From Rhodohalobacter sp. SW132 (GTDB lineage Bacteria > Bacteroidota > Rhodothermia > Balneolales > Balneolaceae), in contig NZ_QUOK01000011.1 of the NCBI RefSeq assembly GCF_003390325.1, positions 1 through 64,000 on the forward strand: 64,000 nucleotides of DNA, given 5' to 3'. Shown here in pieces: positions 28,040 through 61,364 of the stretch (position 1 is its first letter; every line of letters begins with the position of its first letter). The position numbers and the translations under genes were made by a program. A model generated the notes under the pieces. It made no database searches, had not been told where the DNA came from, and saw only the letters and a list, made by a program, of their open reading frames with translations.

Positions 28040-29458
28040 ATGGAAACAGAAAAACTAAACTGGTTAGAAAAAAGACTTCAGACACTTGATGAGTATGAGC
28101 GCGAACCGGTTCCTGAAAAAAAGCTTAAGGGCTGGCGTGGCTTTCTGGGTATGTACGCCGGTGAACATACCGCGGGAACAGAATTTGTGATCGGCGCGCT
28201 TTTCGTTGCGCACGGTGTTTCTTTTATGGATCTCGTTATCGGGCTTATCATTGGAAACCTGCTGGCCGTATTCAGCTGGGCTTTTTTATGTGCCCCGGTT
28301 GCGGTGAAAACCAAACTTACACTCTACTGGCAATTGAAAAAGATCTGCGGAGATCATCTGGCCAGCCTCTACAATGTTGTGAATGCCATTATGTTTTGTT
28401 TCCTGGCCGGTGCGATGATCGCTGTGGCCGCAACTGCAGTTGGTCTGCCTTTTCAAATCCCGATGCCGGGACTGGATGATCTCTTCCCAACCAGTATTGG
28501 CTGGATCCTCACCGTCTTTTTTGTTGGCACCATCATCACCATCATTGCCATCGCCGGTTATGAATATGTGGCGCGCTTCGCAAATATCAGTTTTCCATGG
28601 ATGTTTCTTGTTTTTGTAGCTGCTGCTATTGCCGTTCTCCCTTCGCTTGGCGTAGAATCGGTTTCCGGATTCACCACGGCGGCAAATGAACAGATCTGGA
28701 CCGGTGTCGCTGCGGAAGGCCTCACACAGTTTACCGTCTGGCACGTTATCTTTTTCGCCTGGTTCGCAAACATGGCCATGCACATTGGGATGAGCGATAT
28801 GTCGATCCTCCGGTATGCAAAAAAATGGCAGTACGGGTTTGCATCTGCGGCCGGTATGTTTTTTGGGCACTTCATCGCCTGGATGGCCTCCGGTGTTCTT
28901 ATGGCAGCAGCTGCAGGTGCCGTTGCTCCCGGGCTGATCGCTTATAATAGTGCAGGAATTGCCGGAGCAATCTGCGTTGTCATCGCAGGCTGGACCACAG
29001 CAAACCCAACGATCTACCGGGCCGGGCTTGCATTTCAGTCTGTCACGCCCAACTGGAAACGGTGGAAAGTTACGCTCTTTACCGGCTTTTTCACCACAGT
29101 AATTGCCTGCTTTCCCGCTCTCGTAATGAATCTGCTCGATTTTGTGGCCCTCTATGGCTTGGTGCTGATGCCTATGGGTGCTGTTGTGCTGCTGGACGTA
29201 CTCTTTTTCAAAAAGTTTAACCTGATACCCAATTACGCCGAACAGGTTGGAATCAAATTCAACTGGGCCGCAGCCATCACGTGGTTTTTTACCCTCGGAT
29301 TTTGCCTCTTCCTGAATCTATACGCAGGAATTGAAATCTTCTTCCTCGGGCTGCCCGGATGGTTTGTAGCTGTTGGCGTCTACATCGGCATGAGTTACCT
29401 GATTCACACAAAGAGCATCAAAAAAACTGAAAAAATTGAACACACAGAACAATCTTAA
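28040..29458 (+). CDS. NCS1/cytosine-permease-like transporter, candidate L-rhamnose permease
   Basis: 472 residues with about 12 hydrophobic helices. The N-terminal block GWRGFLGMYAGEHTAGTEFVIG, the ANMAMHIGMSD motif and the GWTTANPTIYRAGL motif are the NCS1 (purine-cytosine permease) hallmarks. NCS1 members normally carry nucleobases and vitamins. Here the gene lies 5 nt upstream of the rhamnose aldolase gene and leads the operon, so L-rhamnose or a related deoxysugar is the likely substrate (inference from context). No typical RhaT or SusCD is present. Confidence 0.78.
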   Translation: METEKLNWLEKRLQTLDEYEREPVPEKKLKGWRGFLGMYAGEHTAGTEFVIGALFVAHGVSFMDLVIGLIIGNLLAVFSWAFLCAPVAVKTKLTLYWQLKKICGDHLASLYNVVNAIMFCFLAGAMIAVAATAVGLPFQIPMPGLDDLFPTSIGWILTVFFVGTIITIIAIAGYEYVARFANISFPWMFLVFVAAAIAVLPSLGVESVSGFTTAANEQIWTGVAAEGLTQFTVWHVIFFAWFANMAMHIGMSDMSILRYAKKWQYGFASAAGMFFGHFIAWMASGVLMAAAAGAVAPGLIAYNSAGIAGAICVVIAGWTTANPTIYRAGLAFQSVTPNWKRWKVTLFTGFFTTVIACFPALVMNLLDFVALYGLVLMPMGAVVLLDVLFFKKFNLIPNYAEQVGIKFNWAAAITWFFTLGFCLFLNLYAGIEIFFLGLPGWFVAVGVYIGMSYLIHTKSIKKTEKIEHTEQS

Positions 29459-29463
29459 CTGTA

Positions 29464-31692
29464 ATGAGTGAAAATACAATGACTACAAAGAAGACGAGAA
29501 AAAGTACGACAGAACACTATTTCAGAACTGTGGAAAGTGAGTGGGATGATTCTCATGCCGATAAGCTCGATCCTGTCGGACGGCTGGTCTACCGCTCTAA
29601 TCTTTTGGGCAGCGATGCCTATGTAAACAATACAGGCGGCGGCAACACGTCCAGCAAGCTGACGGAACAAGATCCCATTTCCGGCGAAGAGGTATCCGTG
29701 TTATGGGTGAAAGGATCCGGCGGCGATCTCCGAACCGCAAAACGCCCGAACTTTGCATCTCTCTACCAGGATAAGCTCCTAAACCTGCAGGATATCTATC
29801 ACAATAAAGAGAATACCGGGCTAAAAACTCCCGCAGAGGATTCTATGGTACAGATGTATCCTCACTGCACCTTCAATCTGAATCCGCGTGCACCGTCGAT
29901 CGACACGCCCCTGCACAGTTTCATCCCGTTTGATTTTGTAGACCATACCCATCCTGTGCCGATTATCTCTATCGCCACAGCGGATAACGGAAAAGAAATC
30001 ATGAAAGAGATTTATGGGGATGAAGTCGCCTGGGTAGATTGGATGCGTCCCGGATTTGAACTGGGTCTCGCACTTCAGAATACGATCAAAGAAAATCCCG
30101 GCATTAAGGGAATTATCCTGGGCGGACACGGACTGATTAACTGGGATAATGACGATAAAGCGTGTTATGAACTTAGTCTCGATCTGATTAACCGCGCGGC
30201 TGAATATCTTGCAGAAAACGAAAAGGGAGCGGATACTTTCGGTGGAAACCAGTACACGTCCCTGCCGGAAGAGGAACGGCACGATCTGATCGCTGATGTT
30301 TCTCCTTATATCCGCGGGCTGCTTGCTGAAGACGACCGCTTTATCGGAACCTACCAGGATGATGAAGTTACCCTGCAGTTTATCAATTCTGCAGATGCCG
30401 GACGGCTGGCTGAACTGGGAACCTCGTGCCCCGACCATTTTCTGCGTACAAAAATCAAACCGCTCTACATTGACTGGAATCCGGATGCAGAGAATTCAGA
30501 CGATCTGAAATCGAAAATTGAAAGCGGGCTCGAACAGTATCGGAAAGATTACGCCGTATATTACAACCAGTGCAAAGATGATGAGTCGCCCGATATGAGA
30601 GGCGGAAATCCCACTGTACTATTGATTCCCGGCCTTGGCATGATTACCTGGGGGAAATCAAAAAGTGAATCCCGGGTGACGGCAGAGTTTTACACAGCCG
30701 CAATCGGTGTGATGAGAGGAGCAGAATCAATCGGATCATACACCGCCCTGCCGCGTCAGGAAGCGTTCGATATTGAATACTGGGCTCTTGAAGAGGCAAA
30801 ACTCCAGCGAATGCCGCCCGAAAGCGAGCTTTCAAGAAAAGTGGTACTGGTTATCGGATCTGGAAGCGGCATTGGCAAGGCGCTTGTTCCGAAACTGATC
30901 GATGAAGGCGGAACGGTTGCCTGCCTCGACCTGGATGAAAACAACGCTAAAAATACTGCTGATGAAATTCTTGGTAAGATCGGTATGGGAATTGGTGTTG
31001 CCGGATCAGGCATCAGCCGCAGCGGTGATGTGATCGGGCTGGGATGCGATATAACCGATCGAAATTCAGTTAAGGAAGCAATCAGGCAGACGATTCTCGC
31101 CTATGGCGGCGTGGATATGGTAGCCGTTACCGCCGGTCTGTTTCCCACCCCTGATGAAAATGGAAATCTGCCGGATACCGCATGGGATAAATCGTTTGCT
31201 GTAAATGTAAAAGGTAACTTTATTGTAGCAGATGAAATGTCAGCCACATGGAAGAAGCAGGGAATGGAAGGCAGCATGGTGATTACAACCAGTGCAAATG
31301 CCGTGGTTGCAAAAATCGGAAGTATGGCGTACGATACAAGTAAATCCGCTGCAAACCATTTGGTTAGAGAGCTCGCAATCGAGCTTTCACCGGAAATCAG
31401 GGTTAACGGCGTTGCGCCGGCAACCGTAGTGGATGGAAGCAGCATGTTTCCCAGAAATCGTGTGATGGCCTCGCTAACCAAATACAACATCGATTTTGAT
31501 GAAAGTGAGGAGACTGAAGAGCTCCGCGAAAGGCTGGCAGATTTTTATGCTCAGCGAACGCTTACACAGCGATCGATCTCCCTCGAACAACAGACTGAAG
31601 CGATCTATTCGCTGCTGAGCTCCCGGTTTGAAAATACAACCGGCCACATCATCCCCGTGGATGGCGGCCTTAAAGATGCGTTTATGAGATAG
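29464..31692 (+). CDS. rhaEW: Bifunctional rhamnulose-1-phosphate aldolase / L-lactaldehyde dehydrogenase
   Basis: 742-residue fusion. The N-terminal class II aldolase/adducin domain (about 20-430) has the TGGGNTSSK phosphate site, the metal-binding DHTHP motif and GGHG. The C-terminal SDR domain (about 455-740) has the GSGSGIG loop and YDTSK active site. The family (RhaEW, YuxG-like) splits L-rhamnulose-1-P into DHAP and L-lactaldehyde and oxidises the aldehyde to L-lactate in one polypeptide. Start ATG at 29464; a second ATG at residue 7 is possible. It fits with LutABC downstream, which consumes the lactate. Confidence 0.93.
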   Translation: MSENTMTTKKTRKSTTEHYFRTVESEWDDSHADKLDPVGRLVYRSNLLGSDAYVNNTGGGNTSSKLTEQDPISGEEVSVLWVKGSGGDLRTAKRPNFASLYQDKLLNLQDIYHNKENTGLKTPAEDSMVQMYPHCTFNLNPRAPSIDTPLHSFIPFDFVDHTHPVPIISIATADNGKEIMKEIYGDEVAWVDWMRPGFELGLALQNTIKENPGIKGIILGGHGLINWDNDDKACYELSLDLINRAAEYLAENEKGADTFGGNQYTSLPEEERHDLIADVSPYIRGLLAEDDRFIGTYQDDEVTLQFINSADAGRLAELGTSCPDHFLRTKIKPLYIDWNPDAENSDDLKSKIESGLEQYRKDYAVYYNQCKDDESPDMRGGNPTVLLIPGLGMITWGKSKSESRVTAEFYTAAIGVMRGAESIGSYTALPRQEAFDIEYWALEEAKLQRMPPESELSRKVVLVIGSGSGIGKALVPKLIDEGGTVACLDLDENNAKNTADEILGKIGMGIGVAGSGISRSGDVIGLGCDITDRNSVKEAIRQTILAYGGVDMVAVTAGLFPTPDENGNLPDTAWDKSFAVNVKGNFIVADEMSATWKKQGMEGSMVITTSANAVVAKIGSMAYDTSKSAANHLVRELAIELSPEIRVNGVAPATVVDGSSMFPRNRVMASLTKYNIDFDESEETEELRERLADFYAQRTLTQRSISLEQQTEAIYSLLSSRFENTTGHIIPVDGGLKDAFMR

Positions 31693-31799
31693 CAGCTGCT
31701 GTAACGCTTTACCCCTGATATGGGTGAAAAATCCACTCTGCAGCCTCCGGGTTTGCAGGGTGGATCATTAACTTGATTTTCGAAAAAACCCAACTTGAT

Positions 31800-31973
31800 A
31801 TGAACAGTATTCTTAAAATTGTTTCATTCAGCGGACTGCTGCTTACCATTGTGCCGTCATTTCTCGTCTTTAACGGTACCATCAGTTTTCAACTGCACAC
31901 TACCCTGATGCTTGTCGGCATGATTTTGTGGTTTGCCTCTTCTCCGTTCTGGATGAAGGAGAAAAAACTATGA
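31800..31973 (+). CDS. Two-helix small membrane protein in the rhamnose operon
   Basis: 57 residues with two hydrophobic helices (about 5-25 and 33-50) and a basic C-terminus KEKKL. The ATG at 31800 is preferred to an upstream in-frame start at 31773. Its TGA overlaps the ATG of the isomerase gene (31970-31973), so the pair is translationally coupled. Of unknown function; it might be a transporter accessory subunit or assist a membrane-bound step. Similar tiny two-TM ORFs sit beside sugar-isomerase genes in related bacteria, as far as I recall. Confidence 0.7.
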   Translation: MNSILKIVSFSGLLLTIVPSFLVFNGTISFQLHTTLMLVGMILWFASSPFWMKEKKL

Positions 31974-33256
31974 AAATCAATAAAAATCAGATTGACGAAC
32001 ACAATCGAAAAAGCGCTGACGGCCATCAGGATGCCCTGCGTCTGCTTGAAGATCAACTTTCCAAAAACGGGATCAGCCCGGACGATTTGGTTCAAAAACT
32101 TTCAGATTTCCAGGTTGCTATTCCAAGCTGGGCACTGGGTGCCGGAGGAACGCGTTTCGGGCGGTTTAAGATGGGAGGTGAGCCGCGTACACTGGAAGAG
32201 AAAATCGAGGATGTAGGCATCATTCACGCACTCAATGGATCCAGCGGTGCCATATCACTCCACATCCCCTGGGATATACCGGACGATACGGAAGCGATCA
32301 GGCAGAAAGCAGATGCACTTGATCTGTTATTCGATGCCGTAAATTCCAACACGTTCCAGGATCAGCCGGATCAGAAATTTTCATATAAGTTCGGTTCACT
32401 CAGCCATACCGATTCGCGCGTACGAGAGCAGGCCGTGGCTCATAATAAAGAGGTGATAAAAATCGGGAAGGAACTGGGATCTAAGGCACTTACGGTCTGG
32501 CTCGCCGACGGATCCAATTTTCCCGGCCAGCAAAACCTGCGGAAAGCCCTCGATCGCACCCGGCAGTCTCTTGAAGATGTTTATTCCGACCTTCCATCCG
32601 ACTGGACGATGCTGATTGAGTACAAACCGTTTGAACCCAATTTCTATTCCATGGTTATCCCCGATTGGGGAACATCCTTTCTGCTCGCTTCCAAATTGGG
32701 AGATCGTGCAAAAACGCTGGTCGACCTGGGGCATCATCTGCCAAACACCAATATTGAGCAGATTGTTGCCACTCTGATGATGGAGAACAAACTTGGCGGG
32801 TTTCATTTTAACGATTCAAAATATGCGGATGATGACCTCACCACCGGCTCCATCAAACCGTACCAGCTTTTTCTGATTTTTTGTGAACTGACAGACCAAG
32901 TGGACAACCCCGATGACACCACGTTTTCCGATCTCGCATGGATGATTGATGCCAGTCATAACGTAAAAGATCCGCTTGAAGATCTGCTGCAATCCGTTGA
33001 AGCGATACAGATCGCCTATGCCCGTGCGCAAATCCTCGACAGAAAAGAGCTTGAAAGCGCACGCCGGGATAATGATGTGGCCCGGGCCCAGGATATTTTA
33101 CAAGAAGCATTCCGGACCGATGTGCGCCCCCTGTTGCGTGAAAGCAGGCTAAAAAACGGCGCTGCAATTCAGCCGGAGATACTGTTCAGGGAACTGAACG
33201 TGCGGGATCAATTGGTCCGCGTCAGAGGCAGCGATTCTACCGCTACCGGGTTGTAA
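31970..33256 (+). CDS. rhaI: L-rhamnose isomerase (Pseudomonas stutzeri/Streptomyces type)
   Basis: TIM-barrel isomerase converting L-rhamnose to L-rhamnulose. 428 residues from ATG 31970. Family blocks are VAIPSWALGAGGTRFGRF near the N-terminus, LHIPWDIPDD, the metal-site segments ALTVWLADGSNFPGQ, EYKPFEPNFYS, DLGHHLP, FHFNDSKYADDDLTTG and MIDASHN. It differs from E. coli RhaA. The start is chosen by the 4-nt overlap with the small ORF upstream, plus an AAGGAG-like sequence (31957-31962). Followed by the kinase gene after 54 nt. Confidence 0.93.
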   Translation: MKINKNQIDEHNRKSADGHQDALRLLEDQLSKNGISPDDLVQKLSDFQVAIPSWALGAGGTRFGRFKMGGEPRTLEEKIEDVGIIHALNGSSGAISLHIPWDIPDDTEAIRQKADALDLLFDAVNSNTFQDQPDQKFSYKFGSLSHTDSRVREQAVAHNKEVIKIGKELGSKALTVWLADGSNFPGQQNLRKALDRTRQSLEDVYSDLPSDWTMLIEYKPFEPNFYSMVIPDWGTSFLLASKLGDRAKTLVDLGHHLPNTNIEQIVATLMMENKLGGFHFNDSKYADDDLTTGSIKPYQLFLIFCELTDQVDNPDDTTFSDLAWMIDASHNVKDPLEDLLQSVEAIQIAYARAQILDRKELESARRDNDVARAQDILQEAFRTDVRPLLRESRLKNGAAIQPEILFRELNVRDQLVRVRGSDSTATGL

Positions 33257-33310
33257 CCCCGAATCTGCATCAGCTGGGCAATCAACCTTTAATCAGCAAA
33301 AAAGGCCACT

Positions 33311-34756
33311 ATGTCATCATCCATACCTGTTACAGCCATTTTTGACATCGGGAAAACCAATAAAAAATTCCTGCTGTTCGACGACCGTTTTAACATCGTC
33401 TATAGCAGAAAAAATAATCTTGATGAGACGACTGACAACGACGGCTTCCCATGTGAAGATATTGAACAGTTAAACAAGTGGATTCAAGAGGTCACCAAAG
33501 AAGTGGCCCATCAAAACAAATATGTAATTCGTCAGCTGAATGTGTCGGCTTACGGCGCCACTCTTGTTCACCTTGACAAAAACGGGGACCCGACTGCACC
33601 GATGGAAAACTATCTGAAGCCATATCCTGAAGAGCTGAAAGAACAATTCTATGATACGTATGGCGGCAGGAATCAATTTTCTACAGAAACCGCATCCCCC
33701 CCAATGGGAATGCTCAATTCGGGCTTGCAGCTCTACCGGATCAAACATGAAAACCCGGAATTACTAAAATCGATCAACGCTACGCTTCATCTTCCCCAGT
33801 ATATCAGCTATCTTTTTACCGGCAGAAAAACCGCTGATCTTACAAGTATTGGCTGCCATACCGGAATGTGGAACTACCGGAAAAACACCTATCATCCCTG
33901 GTTGAAAAAGGAAAAATTACAGCATTTACTGCCCGACCCTGAACTTCCAAAAAAAACCACCAATGGCCATTTTGAAAGTCATCATTTTGAAACCGGCATT
34001 GGAATTCACGACAGTTCAGCCGCGCTCGTTCCGTATCTTATCGGGCTTGATGAACCCTTTATTCAGCTCTCAACCGGCACATGGAGTATTGCCATGAACC
34101 CGTTCACTCAAACAGAGCTGACTTATGATGATCTTGAAAGGGATTGCCTTCAGTATCTGAATATATACGGTGAACCGGTGAAGGCGTCCCGGCTGCTGCT
34201 TGGTGCGGAATATTCACATCAGCTTGAAAAAATCTCGGCTTACTTTAATAAAAACAGGAAAACTCCGGGAAATCATGCCGATCCAACTCTACTGAAAAAA
34301 CTAATCAACAATCCTGATCCCGACCGGAAACTTATCCTCGAAAAAGCGGGCGAAACCGGCCCGCATCCACACACCGGCAGGGGAACGTGGAATCTTGACG
34401 TTTTTAACACGTTCAGGGAAGCGTGCCATCAACTTATGCTCGACCTGGTATCTATACAGACAGACGCCATACGGCTTGCCGAGGGAGAAACCACAGCCAA
34501 ACAAATTATTGTTACCGGAGGTTTTGCAAATAACTCTTTTTTCTGCAGATTACTGGCAACTCATTTCCCGGATAAAAAAATATATACTGCATCCACATCC
34601 TATGCATCGGCGCTGGGAGCGGCCCTGGTGATGAATATCGATACCTTAAAGCCCGGGTGGGTAAAAGATCTGCTCGGCCTGAATCTTGTGGATCCGATAG
34701 ACGGAGTGCCGGTTGGGGATTATGCCTGGAATGAGTCTCACAATCAAACCTTATAA
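33311..34756 (+). CDS. FGGY-family carbohydrate kinase (rhamnulokinase-like)
   Basis: 481 residues. The N-terminal ASKHA phosphate-1 motif is FDIGKTNKKFLLFD; a second conserved nucleotide region lies at LSTGTWSIAMNP, and GGFANNSFF marks the adenosine loop near the C-terminus. In this operon it should phosphorylate L-rhamnulose at O1 before aldol cleavage. It is distant from E. coli RhaB, so L-fuculose or another ketose cannot be excluded. Position between rhaI and lutA supports the rhamnose assignment. Confidence 0.85.
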   Translation: MSSSIPVTAIFDIGKTNKKFLLFDDRFNIVYSRKNNLDETTDNDGFPCEDIEQLNKWIQEVTKEVAHQNKYVIRQLNVSAYGATLVHLDKNGDPTAPMENYLKPYPEELKEQFYDTYGGRNQFSTETASPPMGMLNSGLQLYRIKHENPELLKSINATLHLPQYISYLFTGRKTADLTSIGCHTGMWNYRKNTYHPWLKKEKLQHLLPDPELPKKTTNGHFESHHFETGIGIHDSSAALVPYLIGLDEPFIQLSTGTWSIAMNPFTQTELTYDDLERDCLQYLNIYGEPVKASRLLLGAEYSHQLEKISAYFNKNRKTPGNHADPTLLKKLINNPDPDRKLILEKAGETGPHPHTGRGTWNLDVFNTFREACHQLMLDLVSIQTDAIRLAEGETTAKQIIVTGGFANNSFFCRLLATHFPDKKIYTASTSYASALGAALVMNIDTLKPGWVKDLLGLNLVDPIDGVPVGDYAWNESHNQTL

Positions 34757-34767
34757 AAACAGCATCT

Positions 34768-35517
34768 ATGAATGTCTCGCTCTTTCTTACCTGTGTGAAT
34801 GATACGCTTTTTCCGGGTACCGGCAAGGCTGTGGTTCATCTGCTTGAGAGACTTGGCCATACGATAGATTTCAACCCGGAACAGACATGCTGCGGCCAGA
34901 TGCATTACAACACCGGCTATCGTGATGAAACTGTACCGCTGGTTCGGCGTTTTGTTGAACTGTATGAAGATGCCGAAGCGGTGGTGGTGCCGTCGGCTTC
35001 CTGCGCCGGAATGATTCATGAATATTATCCCAAAATTGCGGAAACCACCGGTGATTCAGCGCTTGAAAAAAGTGTGTCAGAATTACTGCCAAGAGTATTT
35101 GAACTGTCCGGTTTTTTGGTAGACAAACTCAAAATTGAAGATGTGGGAGCCTATTTCCCGCACCGCGTTACCTATCACCCGACCTGCCACTCCCTGCGTG
35201 TGCTTCACGTGGGGGATGCCCCGCTGAAACTGCTGAAAAATGTACGGGGACTGGAGTTTGCTGAGCTGCCGAATGCCCTGGAGTGCTGCGGCTTCGGCGG
35301 AACTTTCGCAATCAAAAACAGCGATACATCAGCAGCCATGGTGGGAGACAAAATTCATCACATCAAACAGACCGGTGCTGAAATCTGCGTTGCGGCAGAT
35401 AATTCCTGCCTGATGCATATCGGCGGAGCGATGAGCCGGCAGCGAAGCGGCATCCGAACGGTTCATCTTGCTGAAGTTTTGGCCTCAACCGAAGAGAAGC
35501 CGGGAGGAAAACAGTGA
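34768..35517 (+). CDS. lutA: Lactate utilization protein A, (Fe-S)-binding oxidoreductase
   Basis: 249 residues, family-typical length. Two CCG domains carry the Fe-S ligands: TCCGQM (about 46) and ECCGFGG (about 170-176), with further Cys in PSASCAGM and PTCHSL. With LutB and LutC it oxidises L-lactate to pyruvate at the cytoplasmic membrane. The gene overlaps lutB by a GTGA junction (35514-35517). Its linkage to rhaEW indicates that lactate from rhamnose is fed into central metabolism in the same operon. Confidence 0.94.
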   Translation: MNVSLFLTCVNDTLFPGTGKAVVHLLERLGHTIDFNPEQTCCGQMHYNTGYRDETVPLVRRFVELYEDAEAVVVPSASCAGMIHEYYPKIAETTGDSALEKSVSELLPRVFELSGFLVDKLKIEDVGAYFPHRVTYHPTCHSLRVLHVGDAPLKLLKNVRGLEFAELPNALECCGFGGTFAIKNSDTSAAMVGDKIHHIKQTGAEICVAADNSCLMHIGGAMSRQRSGIRTVHLAEVLASTEEKPGGKQ

Positions 35518-36950
35518 AAAAGGAAAATCGATCCTCCCTTCCGACATTCGAACAGAGTGCCGGTCATTATCTGGCCGATACGCAGCTGCGAAAAAATATT
35601 GGTCATGCCACCCAAACGATTCGAAAAAAAAGGGATGACGTCACCGGGGAGCTGCCCGATTGGGAAGAGCTCCGTGAGTCGGGCCGGCAGATCAAGCAGC
35701 AGGTGATGAACAACCTGGATGATTACCTGCTTGAACTCGAAGAATCGGTAACAGCGGCGGGCGGAGTGGTTCACTGGGCCGCGGATGCCGATGAGGCAAA
35801 CCAGATTGTTACGCAACTGATCCGTGAAAAACAGGAGACGGAAGTTGTGAAGGTGAAATCGATGACAACCGATGAGATCCGGCTGAATGAAGCACTGCAA
35901 AACGCCGGGATTACGGCTCTGGAAACCGATCTTGCCGAGCTTATTGTGCAGCTTGCCGGCGATGAATCATCGCATATCCTGGTGCCTGCCATTCATAAAA
36001 ACCGGTCAGAGATCCGGGATCTTTTCAAAGAAAAACTGAATATTGAACATCTGAGTGATGAGCCGGCCGACCTTGCAGAAGCGGCACGCCTCTACCTGAG
36101 AAAGAATTTTTTAAAGGCAAAAATTGGCATCAGCGGCGGGAATTTTGCCGTTGCCGAAACCGGGACTGTGGCTGTTGTAGAATCAGAAGGAAACGGACGG
36201 ATGTGCACCACCCTGCCGGACACGCTGATTACCGTTTTGGGGATAGAAAAAATCATCCCAAAATGGTGTGATCTTGAAGTATTTATGCAGCTTCTGCCCC
36301 GCTCCTCCACAGCGGAACGGATGAATCCCTACAACACATTCTGGACCGGCACAACCGATGGGGACAGTCCGCAGGAATTCCACCTGGTTTTGCTTGATAA
36401 CGGCCGTACAAAAGTTTTGGCTGATGAAACCGGGCGGCAAACACTGCACTGTATCCGCTGCAGCGCCTGCCTGAATATTTGTCCCGTTTATGAACGAACC
36501 GGAGGCCATGCCTATCACAGCATTTATCCGGGTCCGATCGGCGCCATTCTCACTCCGCAGCTGCGCGGATTAGATGATTCATCTGCCGCCTCCCTCCCCT
36601 ACGCCTCTTCGCTCTGCGGTGCCTGTTATGAGGTTTGCCCCGTGAAAATCAATATCCCTGAGGTACTGACACATCTTCGGGGCAACATTGTGGAGCACAA
36701 TAAAAAAAATGGCGGCATCCGGTTCAAGATGGATTCAACTCACGTGGGTATGCGTTTGATGGCGCGGGCTTTCCGGAGCAGAAAACGATATGAACGGCTC
36801 CAAAAAATCGGGCAAACGGGTCAGAAACTATTTGAAAAAGATGGCATGATTTCAAAACTGCCGGGCGAACTTTCAAAATGGACAGACTTCCGGGATCTGA
36901 AACCGATCCCGAAACAGACGTTTCGTGAGTGGTGGAGGGATCGTTCATGA
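35514..36950 (+). CDS. lutB: Lactate utilization protein B, 4Fe-4S iron-sulfur protein
   Basis: 478 residues. The N-terminal LUD-type domain (about 60-290) has GGNFAVAETGTV and NEGNGR-like loops. The C-terminal 2x[4Fe-4S] ferredoxin domain has CIRCSACLNICPVY (about 313-326) and CGACYEVCPVKI (about 365-376). The start codon is GTG at 35514, supported by the Shine-Dalgarno GGGAGG (35502-35507). It overlaps lutA by 4 nt and lutC by 4 nt, a tightly coupled trio. Confidence 0.95.
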   Translation: MKKENRSSLPTFEQSAGHYLADTQLRKNIGHATQTIRKKRDDVTGELPDWEELRESGRQIKQQVMNNLDDYLLELEESVTAAGGVVHWAADADEANQIVTQLIREKQETEVVKVKSMTTDEIRLNEALQNAGITALETDLAELIVQLAGDESSHILVPAIHKNRSEIRDLFKEKLNIEHLSDEPADLAEAARLYLRKNFLKAKIGISGGNFAVAETGTVAVVESEGNGRMCTTLPDTLITVLGIEKIIPKWCDLEVFMQLLPRSSTAERMNPYNTFWTGTTDGDSPQEFHLVLLDNGRTKVLADETGRQTLHCIRCSACLNICPVYERTGGHAYHSIYPGPIGAILTPQLRGLDDSSAASLPYASSLCGACYEVCPVKINIPEVLTHLRGNIVEHNKKNGGIRFKMDSTHVGMRLMARAFRSRKRYERLQKIGQTGQKLFEKDGMISKLPGELSKWTDFRDLKPIPKQTFREWWRDRS

Positions 36951-37597
36951 GCGGCTCCAAAAAAGAGATTTTGCAAAGAATTCGAACATCTCTCGGTGAG
37001 AAAGAATCCCGAGCGGAACTGCCGGCGATCCAAAGAGACTATAACCGGAAAGGCACCAGCGACCTTAAAAGTATTACCAATCAGTTTGCATTACGGGTGA
37101 GCGATTACAAAGCCGTGGTTGAATATGTTGACAAGCCATCCATTTGCAGAAAGGTTGATGAGATCTGTTCCGAATCCGGAATTAAAAAACTGGTTATTCC
37201 GCCCGGACTGAATCCAGATTGGCTTGATTCTCTTTCCCCTGGTATAGAACTCCTTCACGACGATCCGCCACTTTCAAAACAGGATTTAAATAACAGTCAC
37301 GGCGTTTTAACCGGCTGCCGGGTTGCGGTTGCACAGACGGGAACCATCATCCTTGATAGCGGTGCCGGGCAGGGACGCAGAGCACTTACCCTGCTTCCAG
37401 ATTACCATATTTGTGTGGTGGAGAGCGAACAGATCACCGATATTTTTCCGGAGGCAATTGCAAAGCTAACGGATACCGTGCGATCCACCGGAAGGCCTGT
37501 TACCATGATATCAGGGCCATCCGCCACATCGGACATCGAACTGGACCGCGTTGAAGGAGTTCACGGCCCAAGAAACCTTCACGTACTTATTGTTTGA
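36947..37597 (+). CDS. lutC: Lactate utilization protein C
   Basis: 216 residues, LUD domain. Conserved blocks are RVAVAQTGTIILDSGAGQGRRALTLLPD, HICVVESEQI and SGPSATSDIE near the C-terminus. It completes LutABC. I chose ATG 36947 because it overlaps the lutB TGA (36947-36950); an in-frame start at 36929 is less likely. Last gene of the compact rhamnose block; 161 nt of non-coding sequence follow. Confidence 0.93.
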   Translation: MSGSKKEILQRIRTSLGEKESRAELPAIQRDYNRKGTSDLKSITNQFALRVSDYKAVVEYVDKPSICRKVDEICSESGIKKLVIPPGLNPDWLDSLSPGIELLHDDPPLSKQDLNNSHGVLTGCRVAVAQTGTIILDSGAGQGRRALTLLPDYHICVVESEQITDIFPEAIAKLTDTVRSTGRPVTMISGPSATSDIELDRVEGVHGPRNLHVLIV

Positions 37598-47666: not shown

Positions 47667-50600
47667 TTACTTTTGATCATTCCTGTCGTGGTTTACCGTT
47701 GTAGGAGGCGGGCCAACATATGAAGGCTTCATTCCTCCAAAGTCAATCATAATTTTCTCAACACTTACAGATGGATCTGTTCCCCACAGCTTGAAACGAT
47801 AGGTGCCAGGTCCAAGATCCAGCTGCCCGGTTCCAATCAGACGGTTATCCAGTACATTATCCGTCCATGACTGCTCCATATCGAAGGTAATCCATTGAGG
47901 ATTCTCATCACCAATACTTATAGCGCATCGCAGTTCCTGGGAACCATTCAGGGGATAGGCCGGGACAGCCTCCACAATGACCTCGGCAGATCCACCCTCG
48001 GTTACAACAATTTCATAGTCGAGTACAGGAGATTCCTGACGCACTTGTGACAAGTCTTCGACATACCACCTGCTCATCGGTTCCAGAAGCATGGCGGAAC
48101 CACTTCGTCCTAATCCGGTTAGAGAGCTCCATGAAGCCGCACGCCCACCTTTTTTTTGATTGTACTCACTTGCCGGCATAGAAATCACACCATTAGACTC
48201 TACGAAGGCGTTTGACGGGACATTTAATTTTTGATTAAACACAGAAACGGCTACACGGTAGCGCTGTTCCCCGTTGGTAATTTCTATATGGCCATCTATC
48301 TCTTTACCTGCAGGTGCTTCATCATATCGAATCGTAACCCAGATCCGCTCGGATCCACCATTCAATGATCCCTCCTGTTCGCTCAGTTCAATCCAGGGGT
48401 CGCTGGTTGTTGCCGACCATGCTTCCGATTCTTGTCCCCGGTTAAAAATATCGATAAAATGGCGCTGTTGAGTGTAGCGACTAAATGTGGGGAGACGATT
48501 TGTGTCTGTAAACCGGGGGGAGAGCTGCCGTGATTCCTGCACGAAATCGACACCGTACAGTTTCGCTCCATCTTTATGCGGATGAATCGTCAATGTGTTC
48601 CGGCCGGGATTCAAAACAAAATCATTCACCCTAAGCTGCTGTATCCTCCCAACGGCACCATCCGTCCTGACCGGTTCATGGTCATTGAGGGTAACCCACC
48701 AGGTATCGCTGTTTTCATCCGGGTGATCGACCGATAAATTCAGTGTATGAGTTCCACCGGGCTTGTCATCGACATAAAATTCAAACACCGCTTTTGTGGG
48801 ACTGTCCACCTCGTAGGGAATGACATCATATGAGTTGGGGCCGGGTATTGTTAGATTTGTTTCCGCTTTCGGCCATCCCAAAAATGTCCCGGCCGAATCT
48901 TCCCCGGTCGTAAGCTCTCCAAAAATGTCGGCTTCCGAAGCGCTCATTACGATTTTCGATTCCCGTGTTGTAATATCCGGCAGAGTGCCATCCAGCGGTT
49001 GCAGCGGATCAGACTCTCCTTCAATAGCCACACCCAACCCACGAACATTTCCCGTTTCAATACGCGTAGTAATCGGTTCAAAAAATACTGAAGAGCCTTT
49101 TTGATATCCGGGACTGTAATCAACGATATGCTCCCATTTTCCATCGGCAATCTCATGGTTAAAATGGTATGTTAACTGCTGTATTTCCTCAAAAGCTGCA
49201 AACGCCAAATCGCTCATCTGGTTTGCTGATGCCCGGCCCTGTTTGGCGTATTCTCTGCTTTTATAAGCATACAGCCATTTTTCATTCATGGCAGCGGCGC
49301 CGGCAATGGGATAATAGACCAGCTGAAAGTAGGTATCCGAGACTTCTTCGGGAATCTCTTCAGAGAGTTTTTTTGCCCGATCATGCAGATTCTGGTAGCT
49401 GATAATCCGCCGCTCCACTTCATCATTGTAATGCCATAAGCTGTACAGCGGATCCTGAACAGGCGGCCAACCGGCCCATTGCGATTCATTGAACCCCATA
49501 AATTCCGGCTTCCGTTCGGTGGCAAGCCGGTAATACTCCAACATCAGCTCAGCTATCTCTTCCCCATGCTGTTGCGAAATATCGCGCGAGGCAACAGTAT
49601 CAAAAAAGGCACTTATGTTTTCGATAGTCCATGAATCGATATCCCAGGCCAGGTCCATGAAGAATTCGGTCTCCCATTCACGTCGTTTCAAATCCCCGAC
49701 ATTGGCAATCCATATTTCATTCATATTGTTTAGCCAGGCGCGGGTCATTTCACGCCAAACCAGAGAGGGTGATGTGGGGGATAACCACAGATAGGGATGG
49801 GGCGCGCCAAGATATGACAGATGATAATAGACTCCTGCACCCCCAGAACGCTGCTGTTCGGCCTGGTTAGAAAAACGCCTGATATATCCATGGTTATCAT
49901 TGGGCCATATAATGGTAATATCTTCCGGGATATCTAATCCATTTTCATAAATCTCGAGCACCTCTTTATATGGGGTAAACGATTGCGGAACTTCGGACAC
50001 ATCTTCATTTATAAACTGACTCAGAAGCCCCCTCTGATCCGAAATTATCTTTTCGAGCGCGTCTACTGCCTCTTCCATGGATCCTACACCTTCCATCCCG
50101 GTATCATGAACACCGCGCATACCTACCGTGTAGATGGCGCCCATCCCCTCGCTCTGCTTCACCCGCTCCTTCCAATACTCGTTCAGGGTAGCTGCATTGG
50201 TTTGATAATTGTAACTCCCCATCACCTCACGATCCCATTCGCCCACATTATTTCGGAGCAACGGCTCGGCGTGGGAGGTTCCTATCACAATTTCCCATTT
50301 TTGTGCAGCCTCCGGATTACCGGGGACCTGGAAAAAGGGGATGGTATTCGGGTGCATTGCCGGCCATATCATGTTGGCTTTGAGACGGAGCACCAGTTCA
50401 AATATTTTCTCATACGTTTTGGGGCCGATATTACCAACCGACGGGTCAAACGTTTTGGATGCCCAGGGTTCAAGGCCCCATCCTTCGTCATTCAGGAAGA
50501 TACCCCGGTACTTAACTGAAGGTGATGTGGAGTAGGTATCTTGAGTACTGACCGATAAAGGGTTCTTCTGTTCAACCGGCACATCCGCCCACCAGTACCA

Positions 50601-51074
50601 GGGCGACACGCCGATCTGTTTAGACAATTCGAAGACTCCATAAGCCATACCTCTTGGGTCGCTGCCGGCAATAAACATCGCCTGGCTGATACCTTCGACA
50701 GGTTCAGATTTAAATACCCACCCATACGTCTCCCACTGTCCCGAAAGGCGCGTAGTATCGATATGGCGGCTAATCAGACCGGAACTGATATCGCCAATTA
50801 TAATTGCATTCCCCTCTACTCCATCCAGGCCTGAATAAATCGACGGTCGATGGCCGGTTACGGCTTCAATATCCTGAGCCAGCAGATGGGCAGCAATGGA
50901 ATCCAGTGATGAATGCTCAATATCATACACAATCGATATCGCGCCATCCTGGTCTGCAATAGTGAATTGGGCTTCAGCATCCTGGCAACACCAACCCAGC
51001 ATTCCTAAAAGTAACAACAACCCTATTTTATGATAACTGGCAGGCGGATTAAGTAGTTTGCTATGTTTCATCAT
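47667..51074 (-). CDS. Secreted GH115-family alpha-glucuronidase
   Basis: 1135 residues with a hydrophobic leader (about 15-36) and a short Cys pair (WCCQ) that could be a lipobox, although SPI cleavage after AEA is more likely. Recognisable GH115 blocks: FLNDEGWGLEPWASKTF, LRLKANMIWPAMHPN, GTSHAEPLLRNN, GMRGVHDTGMEG, IWPNDNHGYIRRF, NEIWIANVGDLKRREWETEFFMDLAWD. GH115 enzymes remove alpha-1,2-linked (4-O-methyl)glucuronic acid from glucuronoxylan-type chains. It follows rhaM after 419 nt on the same strand. Its C-terminus has further beta-sandwich domains (about 700-1120). Confidence 0.93.
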   Translation of the reverse strand: MMKHSKLLNPPASYHKIGLLLLLGMLGWCCQDAEAQFTIADQDGAISIVYDIEHSSLDSIAAHLLAQDIEAVTGHRPSIYSGLDGVEGNAIIIGDISSGLISRHIDTTRLSGQWETYGWVFKSEPVEGISQAMFIAGSDPRGMAYGVFELSKQIGVSPWYWWADVPVEQKNPLSVSTQDTYSTSPSVKYRGIFLNDEGWGLEPWASKTFDPSVGNIGPKTYEKIFELVLRLKANMIWPAMHPNTIPFFQVPGNPEAAQKWEIVIGTSHAEPLLRNNVGEWDREVMGSYNYQTNAATLNEYWKERVKQSEGMGAIYTVGMRGVHDTGMEGVGSMEEAVDALEKIISDQRGLLSQFINEDVSEVPQSFTPYKEVLEIYENGLDIPEDITIIWPNDNHGYIRRFSNQAEQQRSGGAGVYYHLSYLGAPHPYLWLSPTSPSLVWREMTRAWLNNMNEIWIANVGDLKRREWETEFFMDLAWDIDSWTIENISAFFDTVASRDISQQHGEEIAELMLEYYRLATERKPEFMGFNESQWAGWPPVQDPLYSLWHYNDEVERRIISYQNLHDRAKKLSEEIPEEVSDTYFQLVYYPIAGAAAMNEKWLYAYKSREYAKQGRASANQMSDLAFAAFEEIQQLTYHFNHEIADGKWEHIVDYSPGYQKGSSVFFEPITTRIETGNVRGLGVAIEGESDPLQPLDGTLPDITTRESKIVMSASEADIFGELTTGEDSAGTFLGWPKAETNLTIPGPNSYDVIPYEVDSPTKAVFEFYVDDKPGGTHTLNLSVDHPDENSDTWWVTLNDHEPVRTDGAVGRIQQLRVNDFVLNPGRNTLTIHPHKDGAKLYGVDFVQESRQLSPRFTDTNRLPTFSRYTQQRHFIDIFNRGQESEAWSATTSDPWIELSEQEGSLNGGSERIWVTIRYDEAPAGKEIDGHIEITNGEQRYRVAVSVFNQKLNVPSNAFVESNGVISMPASEYNQKKGGRAASWSSLTGLGRSGSAMLLEPMSRWYVEDLSQVRQESPVLDYEIVVTEGGSAEVIVEAVPAYPLNGSQELRCAISIGDENPQWITFDMEQSWTDNVLDNRLIGTGQLDLGPGTYRFKLWGTDPSVSVEKIMIDFGGMKPSYVGPPPTTVNHDRNDQK

Positions 51075-52183: not shown

Positions 52184-53458
52184 TTAATTGTAAGATCCAT
52201 TCTCTTCATCTTCCGGATGCAGCCGCATGATCATGATATCATTTCCTGTATAATAGCTTGAGTTGAACAGGAGCCATTTTCCGTCCGGACTAATGGAGTG
52301 GTGGGAATGTGCATCACCCGTAAATGGTCCATTTCCGCTGGGCCGGTGTCCGGTCGTAAGAAGTGTGTTTTCGCCGGTCTCCAGATTTAACCGATAGATA
52401 TCGCCATCAAAGTTATCTCCCACGGCCCATTTTAAATCGGGGGTGCCGTAGGCATGCCAGTATCCGGAGCCGCCAATCTGACCTTTATTTTCATATTCAC
52501 CCGTTCGGATGTTTTTCACGTATATCCCGGTTGAACTACTCTCGCGCAGCCGGTCAAGATGTCCCATCATATTGAAAATAACATGATCCGGCCCCATAAA
52601 TACTTCATGTGTAACCCATTCGTAATCATCCTCTTCATACACCGGCCGTGTTTCGGCTTCACCGTTTTCATCAACAGTCAGCATCCAGATACGCTGCGGA
52701 GAATCACCCCGTGTCTCCCAGCTATAAACCATCTCTCCGGAAACCCAACGGTTTGCCTGCAGATGATTGGCCCAGAACGGCACCTCCAGAAGTTTCTGCA
52801 GATCTCCTGATTCAAGGTCAACCATATAGAATGTGGAGAGGTCCTGATTATGTCGCGATATAAAGAAGAGCCGATCCTCGTCAGCATCCAGCGCAAAATC
52901 GCCGCTCGGGTTCAGATCTTCCGGTAAATCGGTAACAACCCGGTCGTAGGTTGACGGATCACCCACGCTGCCATTTTCACTATCGGCCAGAAGCGTGCCC
53001 AGATCCAGTTCAATTAACTGGTTTCCGCGAAAATGATACGCCACATTGGTTTCCCATCCCAGGTGAAGATTATTGCCGTCATCACCGCCGGTAACCTGCA
53101 CAATTTCAAAATCTTCCAGTGACACCGCGTAGGCATGACCGCTTCCCAGCCGATTGGAGCGAAAAACGATATACCGTTCATCGGGCGTCCAGCTCGGGTG
53201 TGTCTGGTAAAATGTGGAGTTGGAGTAGCGCGCCGTGGTGAGAGAAGTAACCTCAAAACCGGTCACCTTATCCTCGTGGGTCAGATGCTCTGATGCAAAA
53301 CGCTGTCCAACCTCGTCGGTTTGGGTGAGATCAAATGTCTCATTGAGATGGCTGCGATCGGAGTAGTCCACGCCATGGATCACCTGGGCGCCGGCCGATT
53401 GACATAGAAAAAATATCATGAGTAGAAATGGTGTAAAAAACAGGCGATAAGATTGCAT
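52184..53458 (-). CDS. Secreted PD40/TolB-like beta-propeller, candidate polysaccharide lyase (PL22/24-like)
   Basis: 424 residues with a signal peptide (about 1-24, ending AGAQ). Propeller repeats are seen as HPSWTPDERYIVFRSNR and HHSISPDGKWLLFNSS. The central His/Trp-rich block (FWANHLQANRW, WETRGDSPQRIWML, YEWVTHEVFMGPDHVIFNMMGH) resembles oligogalacturonate lyases (PL22) and the seven-bladed ulvan lyases (PL24/25), which use His and Tyr in the same fold. A lyase role would supply the unsaturated substrate for the GH88-like enzyme. It could equally be a non-catalytic TolB-like binding propeller. Confidence 0.7.
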   Translation of the reverse strand: MQSYRLFFTPFLLMIFFLCQSAGAQVIHGVDYSDRSHLNETFDLTQTDEVGQRFASEHLTHEDKVTGFEVTSLTTARYSNSTFYQTHPSWTPDERYIVFRSNRLGSGHAYAVSLEDFEIVQVTGGDDGNNLHLGWETNVAYHFRGNQLIELDLGTLLADSENGSVGDPSTYDRVVTDLPEDLNPSGDFALDADEDRLFFISRHNQDLSTFYMVDLESGDLQKLLEVPFWANHLQANRWVSGEMVYSWETRGDSPQRIWMLTVDENGEAETRPVYEEDDYEWVTHEVFMGPDHVIFNMMGHLDRLRESSSTGIYVKNIRTGEYENKGQIGGSGYWHAYGTPDLKWAVGDNFDGDIYRLNLETGENTLLTTGHRPSGNGPFTGDAHSHHSISPDGKWLLFNSSYYTGNDIMIMRLHPEDEENGSYN

Positions 53459-57655: not shown

Positions 57656-58669
57656 TCAGGAAGATTTTATTTTTGGCAAAATTGTCTTTACCCCTATGGA
57701 TGCCATTCGATCTCTCAGTTTTTCAAGCATCTTTTCATTTTGATAGGTTCCAACAATTGCGCCTCCGGACCCTGCAAACTTTGCGCTTACCCCGCAGGCT
57801 CTCGCTACCTGAATCATCTCAACCTGCCAATTGGGCAATTTTGAAATACTTTGTCGCAGATCAAAATTCTCATTGATCAGATCCGATAGCAGGTCGAAAT
57901 CTATTGTCACAAGCGCTTCTCTTCCCTCCTCCGCTATCTCTGCAAAGCGATTCATCGCATCAACTACAATTTGTTCACCTCTCAAAACCCGTCCACGTAT
58001 ATCATTATGATAAACTTCAGTAGGTTCACTCAGTCCATCATGATAAGCTACATAGATATTTGGTAACTGATCAGGGTTCAGGTGTTCGTATTTGTACGTT
58101 TTAAATCCGTCTGATAGATTCTCAGCAGATTGATTGAAGTCCATGTATACGAGGCCTTCATAAACCTGTATCACCCGGTCCTGTAGTCCGGCAGAAATAC
58201 CAAGTTCTTCCTGTTCAACTGTTAAAACAAATGTGGGTTGTGCCTGAAGAGGAATCTTCACATCATAAAATTCCATCAGGCACCTCAGGGTAGCAACAAT
58301 TATGGAACTTGATCCTGCCAAGCCTACCTGGCGCGGTATATCAGAAGAATAACGGATAGAAAAATTCTGGTCATGAAGCTCAATATCACGTTCCCGGCAA
58401 TATTCAACAAATCTCTTTATAGTCGCCTTTACAAGCCGGATGCCGCCGTAATAACCGTGTAGTTTTACATCGTTGGCGAGATCCCTGACCGATCTGAACC
58501 GTGCGCGATCTTGTTCTGCCAGTACGATTTCAACGCTATCCCATTCATATAGAACAACTTCAGCCGAAAAGTTTTGCACGATAAACGATATCGTCTTTCC
58601 GTGATATCCATCAGAAGGATTACCTAAAAAACCTGCTCTGGCGTACGCTTTGTTACGAAGGATCTTCAT
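57656..58669 (-). CDS. GHMP-family sugar kinase, close to plant glucuronokinase
   Basis: 337 residues. GHMP motif 1 is LRNKAYARAGFLGNPSDGYHGKTIS-like at 4-28; motif 2 PRQVGLAGSSS is at 112-122; motif 3 is AKFAGSGGAIVG near 295-306. The blocks GYYGGIRL, IPRQVGLAGSSSI and AGLQDRVIQVYEGLVYMDF look very like plant glucuronokinase (from memory), which phosphorylates D-glucuronate at C1. Its start overlaps the end of the GalU-like gene by 17 nt (58653-58669), so the pair is coupled. The product GlcA-1-P would be a uridylyltransferase substrate. Galacturonate or another hexuronate is a possible alternative. Confidence 0.82.
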   Translation of the reverse strand: MKILRNKAYARAGFLGNPSDGYHGKTISFIVQNFSAEVVLYEWDSVEIVLAEQDRARFRSVRDLANDVKLHGYYGGIRLVKATIKRFVEYCRERDIELHDQNFSIRYSSDIPRQVGLAGSSSIIVATLRCLMEFYDVKIPLQAQPTFVLTVEQEELGISAGLQDRVIQVYEGLVYMDFNQSAENLSDGFKTYKYEHLNPDQLPNIYVAYHDGLSEPTEVYHNDIRGRVLRGEQIVVDAMNRFAEIAEEGREALVTIDFDLLSDLINENFDLRQSISKLPNWQVEMIQVARACGVSAKFAGSGGAIVGTYQNEKMLEKLRDRMASIGVKTILPKIKSS

Positions 58670-59552
58670 TGATTATTTGTTGTAAATATTCCCGTAGTTC
58701 CGGACCAAAATTTTTGTCGGCAAGTGCAAATTCTGTAAAAGCGCGAAAATAGGATCCAAAATTGCCAATATCGTACCGTTTTTCACTCTTTTTTAAGCGC
58801 ACACCATAAACCGTACCGCCGTTTTGAATGAGTAAACGGATGGCATCAGTGAGCTGAATCTCATTACCGGCACCTGGTTTCGTATTTTTTAACGCATCAA
58901 AAATGGATGGAGATAATACATAGCGCGCTGCAACCGCCAGGTTACTGGGTGCCTCGTCAACGGGTGGTTTTTCAATAAGGTCATCTATTTCAAAAACGAC
59001 CCCATTTGAATTTTTTTTCGGTTTAGCAATTCCATATTGAAATACTTCATCTTCAGGCACCTCTTCAAAAGCAATCACGGCATCCGCTTTTTTCTCCCTG
59101 AAACAATCTTTCATGGTTTCCACGATTTTACTTTCGGCATGCATTCCAATGATAGAATCACCAAGTGCAACAATGAATGGATTATTTCCTACAAATGGTT
59201 CGGCACATAGCACAGCATGACCAAGGCCCAAAAGCTGTCTTTGCCGGGTGTAAAAGTATTGAAGATTTGCGCGCTCGTAAGATAATTCAGACAAGAGATC
59301 TTCTTTACCATCTTCCCGAAGTGACTGAGTTAATTCCAGGTTCAGATCGAAATGATTTTCGATGGAAGTTTTTCCGCTGCCGGTAATAAATAACAACCGT
59401 TCGACTCCAACTCTGTTCAGTTCTTCAACCACATATTGTACGACGGGCTTTCTGCCTACCGGCAGCATCTCTTTAGGTTGCGATTTGGTTGCCGGCAACA
59501 ACCGGGTTCCCATGCCAGCAACCGGAACAACCGCTATGTTAATATCACTCAA
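58653..59552 (-). CDS. galU: UTP-glucose-1-phosphate uridylyltransferase family protein (GalU-like)
   Basis: 299 residues. GalU signature GMGTRLLPATKSQPKEMLPVG (about 13-33, nucleotide binding), VVQYVVEE and ALGDSI (metal aspartate), DLIEKPP. It normally makes UDP-glucose from Glc-1-P and UTP. It directly precedes and overlaps the glucuronokinase-like gene, raising the possibility that it also or instead makes UDP-glucuronate from GlcA-1-P. Sequence does not reveal the sugar specificity. A housekeeping GalU role cannot be excluded. Confidence 0.92.
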   Translation of the reverse strand: MSDINIAVVPVAGMGTRLLPATKSQPKEMLPVGRKPVVQYVVEELNRVGVERLLFITGSGKTSIENHFDLNLELTQSLREDGKEDLLSELSYERANLQYFYTRQRQLLGLGHAVLCAEPFVGNNPFIVALGDSIIGMHAESKIVETMKDCFREKKADAVIAFEEVPEDEVFQYGIAKPKKNSNGVVFEIDDLIEKPPVDEAPSNLAVAARYVLSPSIFDALKNTKPGAGNEIQLTDAIRLLIQNGGTVYGVRLKKSEKRYDIGNFGSYFRAFTEFALADKNFGPELREYLQQIINEDPS

Positions 59553-59826: not shown

Positions 59827-61191
59827 TTACGGCATTCCTATATAGTGCGTGTAATTATGCAACCGGGGATTGGGCAGGCTTCTGTCGGGCTCTTCGTAGC
59901 TGCCGGCATACTCTTCGCCATTGCCGTAGACGTAGATCCATCGGGCGTTCCAGATCAGCACTTCCGATCTCGGATCTCCCAGGATATCGGCATGCTGTGC
60001 ACGCTGTGCACGGTTGGGCAGCGAAAGGTCTGGAAACGGAAATTGTGCAACCGTTCCGCCATACCCGTCACGGAGCTCAGGTTTTCTGTCGGCTCCCCTT
60101 CTGTATGCCAGGATCAGGTCGCGGTCTTCCTGGTCCCAGTTGCTCATCCTGGAAATGATGGAGAGCCAGCGTTCCGGGCCTTCATCGGTCCGTTCCTCAC
60201 GCCAAAGTTCTTCACCGTCGTGCGAATATACAATGATCCGGTCCTGCCCTTCAAGGCTTCGGTCTGTTCCGCGGTCGAGTCCGACCACCTCCTTTGTTTC
60301 GGTATCCGGACGGAAATTTCCAACAATCATATGCTGTGCATGACGTGTCGGTTCGGTCCACAAAATATCTCCTTCTACATTCAGCACGTTAAATGTTGCG
60401 CCTCCGCACGTTGCCACAGCGATCTCCAGGTTACCATCTCCGTTCAGATCTAAAATACCCACTCCATCAGCGTGTCCCGGCAGATCTGCCTCCCAAAGCA
60501 CCTTGCCATCATGTGCAATCAGAGCATGCCCGATCACTAATTCGTCATATCCGTTTTGCCTCACATCGTGCGGCCACGGATAATGGCCTACTGTTCCTTC
60601 ATAGGTCCACATCACGCTAAAATCTTCCGGATCGAGTGCCCAGACCTGCGTATACCGCGTTTTCACGACAATATTACCGCGATGACCGTCACCGTTAAAA
60701 TCGGCAAATGACATCCCGTCACGTGCATCTGAATCCGGAAGCGGGCCGGTTCGGATCAGCTCGCCTGTTCTTCCGTTTAGAATATGAATTTCTTCACCAT
60801 CGATGTAAACCACCTCCGGATTACCGTCGTTGTTCAGATCGTGCACCTGGATCGGCATATCGTGATAGATCGCTTCGTGCTCCTCGTTCGGCTCACCCAG
60901 CGTCCAAAGTATATTTCCCTCGATATCCATGGCGTAAATTGTGCCAACATTCTGCATCTCGCCCGGACGCTGAGCCGCCACAACCATATCCAGTTGGTTA
61001 TCGCCGGTTAGATCCGCCAGGCGAACTTCGTTCCACCACTCAGAACCGGTTATCTCTTTGAGATCTAATTTTGAGATCAATTCTGCTTCTGATTCAGCTT
61101 TGGAATCTGAAGCAGAAAGGTTGGCGGTGCTGATTAGAAAAAGGGTTGTTGAGATAAGGCTAAATAATATAAGCCGGAATCGAACAGTCAT
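59827..61191 (-). CDS. Secreted FG-GAP/VCBS-type beta-propeller protein
   Basis: 454 residues from ATG 61191, with a signal peptide (about 1-27). Calcium-loop repeats are seen as DLTGDNQLDMV, DLNNDGNPEVV, DFNGDGHRGNIV and DLNGDGNLEIAV, each with a D-x-D/N-G pattern. The fold resembles the propeller of PL11 rhamnogalacturonan lyases and other exported glycan-binding proteins. Catalytic function not evident. Next to the SMP-30-like gene (173 nt apart), it is probably part of the same secreted set. An upstream in-frame start at 61263 is less likely. Confidence 0.78.
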   Translation of the reverse strand: MTVRFRLILFSLISTTLFLISTANLSASDSKAESEAELISKLDLKEITGSEWWNEVRLADLTGDNQLDMVVAAQRPGEMQNVGTIYAMDIEGNILWTLGEPNEEHEAIYHDMPIQVHDLNNDGNPEVVYIDGEEIHILNGRTGELIRTGPLPDSDARDGMSFADFNGDGHRGNIVVKTRYTQVWALDPEDFSVMWTYEGTVGHYPWPHDVRQNGYDELVIGHALIAHDGKVLWEADLPGHADGVGILDLNGDGNLEIAVATCGGATFNVLNVEGDILWTEPTRHAQHMIVGNFRPDTETKEVVGLDRGTDRSLEGQDRIIVYSHDGEELWREERTDEGPERWLSIISRMSNWDQEDRDLILAYRRGADRKPELRDGYGGTVAQFPFPDLSLPNRAQRAQHADILGDPRSEVLIWNARWIYVYGNGEEYAGSYEEPDRSLPNPRLHNYTHYIGMP

Positions 61192-61364
61192 AAGTTTGCT
61201 CCTTGGGTTGATGGAATTGAATCGGAAGATAAATACCGCCGGCTGAACCATTTTCACTATCAATATTGGCCAGCGGGTTCGCTTTCATAATCTCTTAGAG
61301 AAGGCACAACCGCTGATCTACTCTGTTTATTTAGCCTAATTACCTACAAACCAAATCATTTACT

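Follow-up and report, generated by a model that had tools for sequence, protein, structure and literature searches.

The window, by which we mean the whole stretch of 64,000 nucleotides analysed here, corresponds to contig C11 in a draft genome of 5.08 Mb whose nearest named relatives are Balneolales/Balneolaceae MAGs. Two overlapping reading frames on one strand encode a GalU-like uridylyltransferase and a kinase of the GHMP family (Table 1). Their coordinates, common strand and overlap agree exactly with the original prediction, and the kinase motifs quoted there (IPRQVGLAGSSSIIV, AGLQDRV and GYYGGIRL) are all found in the translated ORF. The TTG start of the GalU-like gene is kept in close relatives. 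According to the ORF list, 274 nt separate the pair from its upstream and 555 nt from its downstream neighbour, so that no third gene abuts and the two genes constitute a two-gene unit; judged from the overlap, they are likely to be translationally coupled. Scans for promoters and terminators remained at chance level.

Table 1. Position in the window of the two genes, their overlap and the codon of the putative specificity residue.
Feature	Position	Strand	Remarks
GalU-like uridylyltransferase, proposed GlcA-1-phosphate uridylyltransferase	58653..59552	(-)	ORF, 299 aa, TTG start; upstream gene of the pair
GHMP-family sugar-1-kinase, proposed glucuronokinase (GlcA + ATP -> GlcA-1-P)	57656..58669	(-)	ORF, 337 aa, ATG start; Pfam, model, Foldseek
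Overlap of GalU 3' end and kinase 5' end	58653..58669	(-)	17 nt, different frames
Ser133 codon of the GalU-like gene	59154..59156	(-)	Computed from ORF start 59552; site at which ordinary GalU has its glucose-contacting Asp

The kinase matches both GHMP domains of Pfam (GHMP_kinases_N, 4.9e-12; GHMP_kinases_C, 1.9e-5), and its AlphaFold2 model (pLDDT 87.1, pTM 0.88) retrieved GHMP kinases in Foldseek, with TM values of about 0.67-0.78 for the leading matches; it thus possesses the fold and the N- and C-terminal domains to be expected of a glucuronokinase. A solved glucuronokinase structure was found in the PDB neither by sequence nor by fold search. Against the NCBIfam equivalogs, the kinase stays far under every cut-off, with HddA as the best match (56 bits, cut-off 600) and lower scores for mevalonate kinase (46 bits, cut-off 163) and galactokinase (23 bits, cut-off 443); its relatives likewise fall below these cut-offs. 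By such scores, the kinase is to be placed outside every curated bacterial GHMP family, in keeping with the original prediction, which had set it apart from the heptose, fucose and mevalonate kinases; it is not a galactokinase either. As comparison sequence for the plant glucuronokinases served an unverified sequence that we take to be Arabidopsis At3g01640 (GlcAK1). With a profile built from the bacterial kinases, this sequence reaches 377 bits, compared to 18 bits reached by E. coli GalK and 2 by ThrB; it shares 43.5% identity with the kinase of the window (and somewhat more with some of the other loci), and matches 47 of 52 near-invariant kinase columns, of which E. coli GalK matches 21. 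As this comparison sequence is a provisional one, orthology with the eukaryotic glucuronokinases is putative, and we treat the likeness as a lead.

The link between kinase and GalU that had been proposed for the window extends to other genomes. Kinase loci were drawn from genome contigs, one plasmid, relatives, 394 genomes of the phylum (10 of them kinase-positive) and 396 genomes of Acidobacteriota (25 kinase-positive). In 35 of 43 distinct loci, distributed over Balneolota, Acidobacteriota, Chloroflexota and Bacteroidota, a GalU gene directly adjoins the kinase, an arrangement that, given its recurrence in several phyla, is not due to chance; the remaining eight kinases lack an adjacent GalU. 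Both gene orders occur: among the rows of the kinase tree, 28 are GalU-first (group support 97/88), nearly all with a short overlap of 1-21 nt, and seven, all from Bacteroidota or its GTDB phylum, are kinase-first. No fusion of the two genes was seen among the 43 loci; an apparent extension of the kinase domain (L084) turned out to be a mere open reading frame and was discarded as a fusion candidate.

The two genes also occur in the same genomes. Among 39 relatives, kinase and GalU are both confined to exactly the same three (G000, G015 and G024), a weak kinase match in a further genome (G011, 23%) being disregarded. In a set of 99 genomes from the phylum, matches to TIGR01099 at E<=1e-75 are seen in G000 and G099 only, which are the two kinase-bearing genomes of this set. 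The odds of such co-occurrence by chance are about 1 in 9,000 for the relatives and about 1 in 5,000 for the 99 genomes, figures that ignore kinship and both include G000. In the trees of both proteins, the closest branches mix Balneolota, Acidobacteriota and Chloroflexota, which suggests that kinase and GalU were transferred together.

Several individual loci deserve mention. One pair (L021) resides on a 235 kb plasmid of Rufibacter tibetensis, NZ_CP012644.1, which is predicted to be mobilizable. An acidobacterial locus (L070, genome G572) has an intact GalU next to a kinase that is broken by in-frame stops, either a pseudogene or an assembly error. A contig of the IMG/VR viral collection harbours a kinase-family member of 37% identity without adjacent GalU (L144:3755-4741), with a glycosyltransferase-like ORF on one side and further ORFs on the other; phage records yielded no match.

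The GalU-like protein contains an NTP_transferase domain (PF00483, 2.9e-28); its Pfam matches are solely of this type, the UDPGP domain (PF01704) being absent. It scores 302.6 bits against TIGR01099, below the equivalog cut-off of 326.8. The residues binding nucleotide, magnesium and phosphate (GxGTR, the Lys-Glu motif, Gln104, Asp132, Glu194 and Lys195) are invariant in our alignment and line up with those of YngB. Position 133, by contrast, separates paired from unpaired enzymes: each of the 29 paired GalUs of type I carries Ser and each of the seven of type II carries Thr, compared to Asp in 30 of the 31 unpaired enzymes, with Val in E. coli. The equivalent Asp134 of YngB, the residue following the magnesium ligand, is a predicted glucose contact (PMC7961091), and D131 of the Pseudomonas aeruginosa UGP coordinates glucose, its D131A variant being almost inactive (reported in PMC11796359). 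However, the Klebsiella and E. coli enzymes have Val at this site and use Glc-1-P (PMC11796359), so that Ser or Thr at position 133 is a marker and not a proof of uronate use. In the GalU tree, the type I sequences group together with 100/100 support on a long stem, and all paired GalUs can be united in one group (88/61); as the tree permits this single group, a convergent origin of Ser and Thr was dropped. Judged by these features, the paired GalU looks specialised. Of the specialisation for GlcA-1-P that had been predicted, the signature replacing the glucose-contacting Asp is observed, while GlcA-1-P itself would be the presumable substrate.

It is also conceivable that the paired GalU is just the plain UDP-glucose pyrophosphorylase of the organism, which would share a transcript with the kinase but make no use of the sugar-1-phosphate formed by it. 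TIGR01099 is, after all, its best-matching family, and the type II enzymes of Bacteroidota mostly score above the cut-off. In addition, neither a second GalU-type gene nor a gene of the UDPGP family (PF01704) was found in this genome. The original prediction had named a missing independent second GalU, combined with strict Glc-1-P preference, as evidence against itself, and the second GalU is indeed missing; as the sole gene of its type, the paired GalU may also supply UDP-glucose. Yet 36 of the 39 related genomes have no GalU of the TIGR01099 type, which can hence not be a housekeeping enzyme there, and GalU follows the patchy distribution of the kinase instead. Moreover, an acidobacterial genome (G040) possesses an ordinary GalU besides the paired one. 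Together with the different residue at the substrate-contact position and the separate type I clade, this makes a plain GalU quite improbable. A UDPGP-family pyrophosphorylase was rejected as the housekeeping enzyme of the lineage, since none scored over the cut-off in the 39 relatives; a 331-aa RmlA-long-like gene, seen at L005, is a candidate for the UDP-glucose pyrophosphorylase of this lineage.

Which sugar is handled by the pair may be gleaned from its surroundings, first of all in other genomes. At an acidobacterial locus (L110), the pair adjoins uxaC (595 bits against a cut-off of 387), together with a GntR/FCD regulator and an MFS transporter of the ACS type; at a second locus (L097), the gene directly after a related kinase without GalU encodes an ACS transporter that shares 53% identity with the one at L110, and at a third (L098), a related kinase is followed by a TRAP transporter. 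The ACS transporters score below the TIGR00893 cut-off, and from the uxaC neighbour and from what is known of the family we infer that they carry hexuronates. Although few, these three contexts point to a hexuronate as the substrate. The two-gene unit of the window itself contains no uronate genes.

Elsewhere in the window, inspection of the ORF list by eye revealed an apparent rhamnose utilisation cluster (28040-37597), in the order transporter, bifunctional rhamnulose-1-P aldolase/lactaldehyde dehydrogenase-like protein, isomerase and rhamnulokinase, followed by three LldEFG-like genes for lactate oxidation. A PD40 repeat protein (52184-53458) resembles oligogalacturonate lyases, and beside the pair, an FG-GAP protein (59827-61263) gives a weak match to the rhamnogalacturonan lyase RGL11. 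These two genes, on either side of the region of the pair, are likely to act on pectin-type substrates.

Such a setting is compatible with a hexuronate or hexose 1-kinase whose main substrate is not glucuronate but galacturonate or a sugar from rhamnogalacturonan or ulvan, the pair then yielding another UDP-sugar, such as UDP-GalA. The GHMP fold accepts many sugars, the window abounds in genes for rhamnose and pectin-type sugars, among them the rhamnulose-1-P aldolase-like, rhamnulokinase-like and RGL11-like ORFs, and UxaC and ACS transporters serve GlcA and GalA alike. However, the only biochemically known relatives of the kinase, AtGlcAK and DrGK, act on GlcA; DrGK is inactive on galacturonate and galactose, and the plant galacturonokinase is reported to be very different in sequence (PMC3938481). 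We regard a different main substrate as unlikely, though not negligible.

A source of glucuronate within the window had been seen in a GH115 alpha-glucuronidase. The protein is clearly identifiable (PF15979, 6e-126; 47667-51074) and encoded on the same strand as the pair, but a functional tie is not borne out: the gene lies outside the two-gene unit, about 6.6 kb away with three other genes in between, and when the neighbouring proteins in the window were compared by BLAST with the surroundings of the other loci examined, no GH115 was found there. Given this distance and lack of conservation, the link is unsupported. A catabolic or detoxifying role in xylan breakdown, in which GH115 would free (4-O-methyl-)glucuronate for disposal by the pair, has in its favour the common strand and a distance of less than 7 kb. 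Apart from the missing conservation, however, the genome contains UxaC (glucuronate isomerase), the usual degradative enzyme, and the synthesis of a UDP-sugar consumes ATP and UTP and is no degradative step. Such a role is therefore highly improbable.

In textbook bacteria, UDP-GlcA is made by oxidation of UDP-glucose, and free GlcA is burnt via UxaC. The original prediction had set salvage against the UxaC route; a replacement of that route is not supported, since the genome has UxaC. The genome also has Ugd-type dehydrogenases, one of which best matches TuaD, if below the TuaD cut-off, and is thus likely to possess a UDP-glucose dehydrogenase. With both enzymes at hand, salvage would be an additional, redundant route. 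Myo-inositol oxygenase (PF05153), the source of GlcA in plants, had no match in eight genomes or records, an uninformative result, as the control genomes were equally blank.

Taken together, we consider it reasonably probable (roughly two in three) that the two genes form an operon for the salvage of UDP-glucuronate, corresponding in bacteria to the route known from plants and zebrafish. In this operon, the kinase would use ATP to phosphorylate C1 of free D-glucuronate, and perhaps of a related hexuronate as well, and the GalU-like enzyme would transfer UMP from UTP onto the uronate-1-phosphate, yielding UDP-GlcA and pyrophosphate. As the magnesium- and diphosphate-binding residues are kept and the acidic glucose contact is lost, the C6 carboxylate of the uronate should be repelled less. 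The resulting UDP-GlcA would enter polysaccharide synthesis, in parallel to the UDP-glucose dehydrogenase route. Gene content, overlap, linkage, co-occurrence, the Ser/Thr signature and the distinctness of the kinase from other GHMP families are directly observed, while the substrate specificity of both enzymes and the direction of flux are what we infer.

We are evenly divided on a more far-reaching proposal, namely that at least four phyla (Balneolota, Bacteroidota, Acidobacteriota and Chloroflexota) share a transferable module for UDP-uronate salvage, in which a GalU subfamily is dedicated to GlcA-1-phosphate. Such a module would provide a route to UDP-GlcA around UDP-glucose dehydrogenase, and the glucuronokinases of plants and animals might have come from it. 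In the literature searched, we found no characterised bacterial glucuronokinase, and recycling of GlcA to UDP-GlcA is biochemically demonstrated in plants and fish, not in bacteria. A bacterial community study lists 'glucuronokinase' as a predicted function (PMC8571626), so that bacterial homologues have probably been annotated automatically. If our reading is true, bacteria would have in the salvage operon a second source of a precursor for acidic exopolysaccharides, and a specificity switch of GalU at a single residue would suggest itself. The pair would also offer a bacterial kinase and pyrophosphorylase for making hyaluronan and glucuronides enzymatically, a synthesis that currently depends on Arabidopsis enzymes (PMC6888640, PMC11868170).

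Among known systems, the heptose kinase HddA/WcbL (D-glycero-D-manno-heptose 7-phosphate kinase) and mevalonate kinase share the GHMP fold and provide the best structural and sequence matches to the kinase in the PDB, but identity is low (about 16-20% in the fold comparison), the scores are far below the family cut-offs, and the N-terminal motif (GNPSDGYHGKT) differs. The GalU-like protein has the fold, the family and the magnesium- and diphosphate-binding residues in common with E. coli GalU and B. subtilis GtaB and YngB, from which it is set apart by Ser133 at the site of the glucose-contacting Asp, a score below the TIGR01099 cut-off and a clade of its own. In plants, GlcA is phosphorylated by GlcAK and then processed by USP (PMC3938481). 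Arabidopsis GlcAK1 and USP follow the same two-step logic, and the provisional GlcAK1 sequence resembles the bacterial kinase over its whole length; the plant partner, however, is an unlinked USP of broad specificity, while here it is GalU-like and encoded in the same operon. In zebrafish DrGKUP, a GlcA-specific glucuronokinase is fused to a putative pyrophosphorylase of extremely low activity, whose prokaryotic relatives have been described solely as stand-alone proteins (PMC3938481). Linkage to a sugar-1-phosphate nucleotidyltransferase, as found in the 35 paired loci, is typical of the animal enzyme without being a defining feature, since plants lack it. The zebrafish kinase is thus physically tied to a nucleotidyltransferase of bacterial type, comparable to the pair described here, with the difference that the animal protein is a fusion and the bacterial counterpart consists of two overlapping genes.
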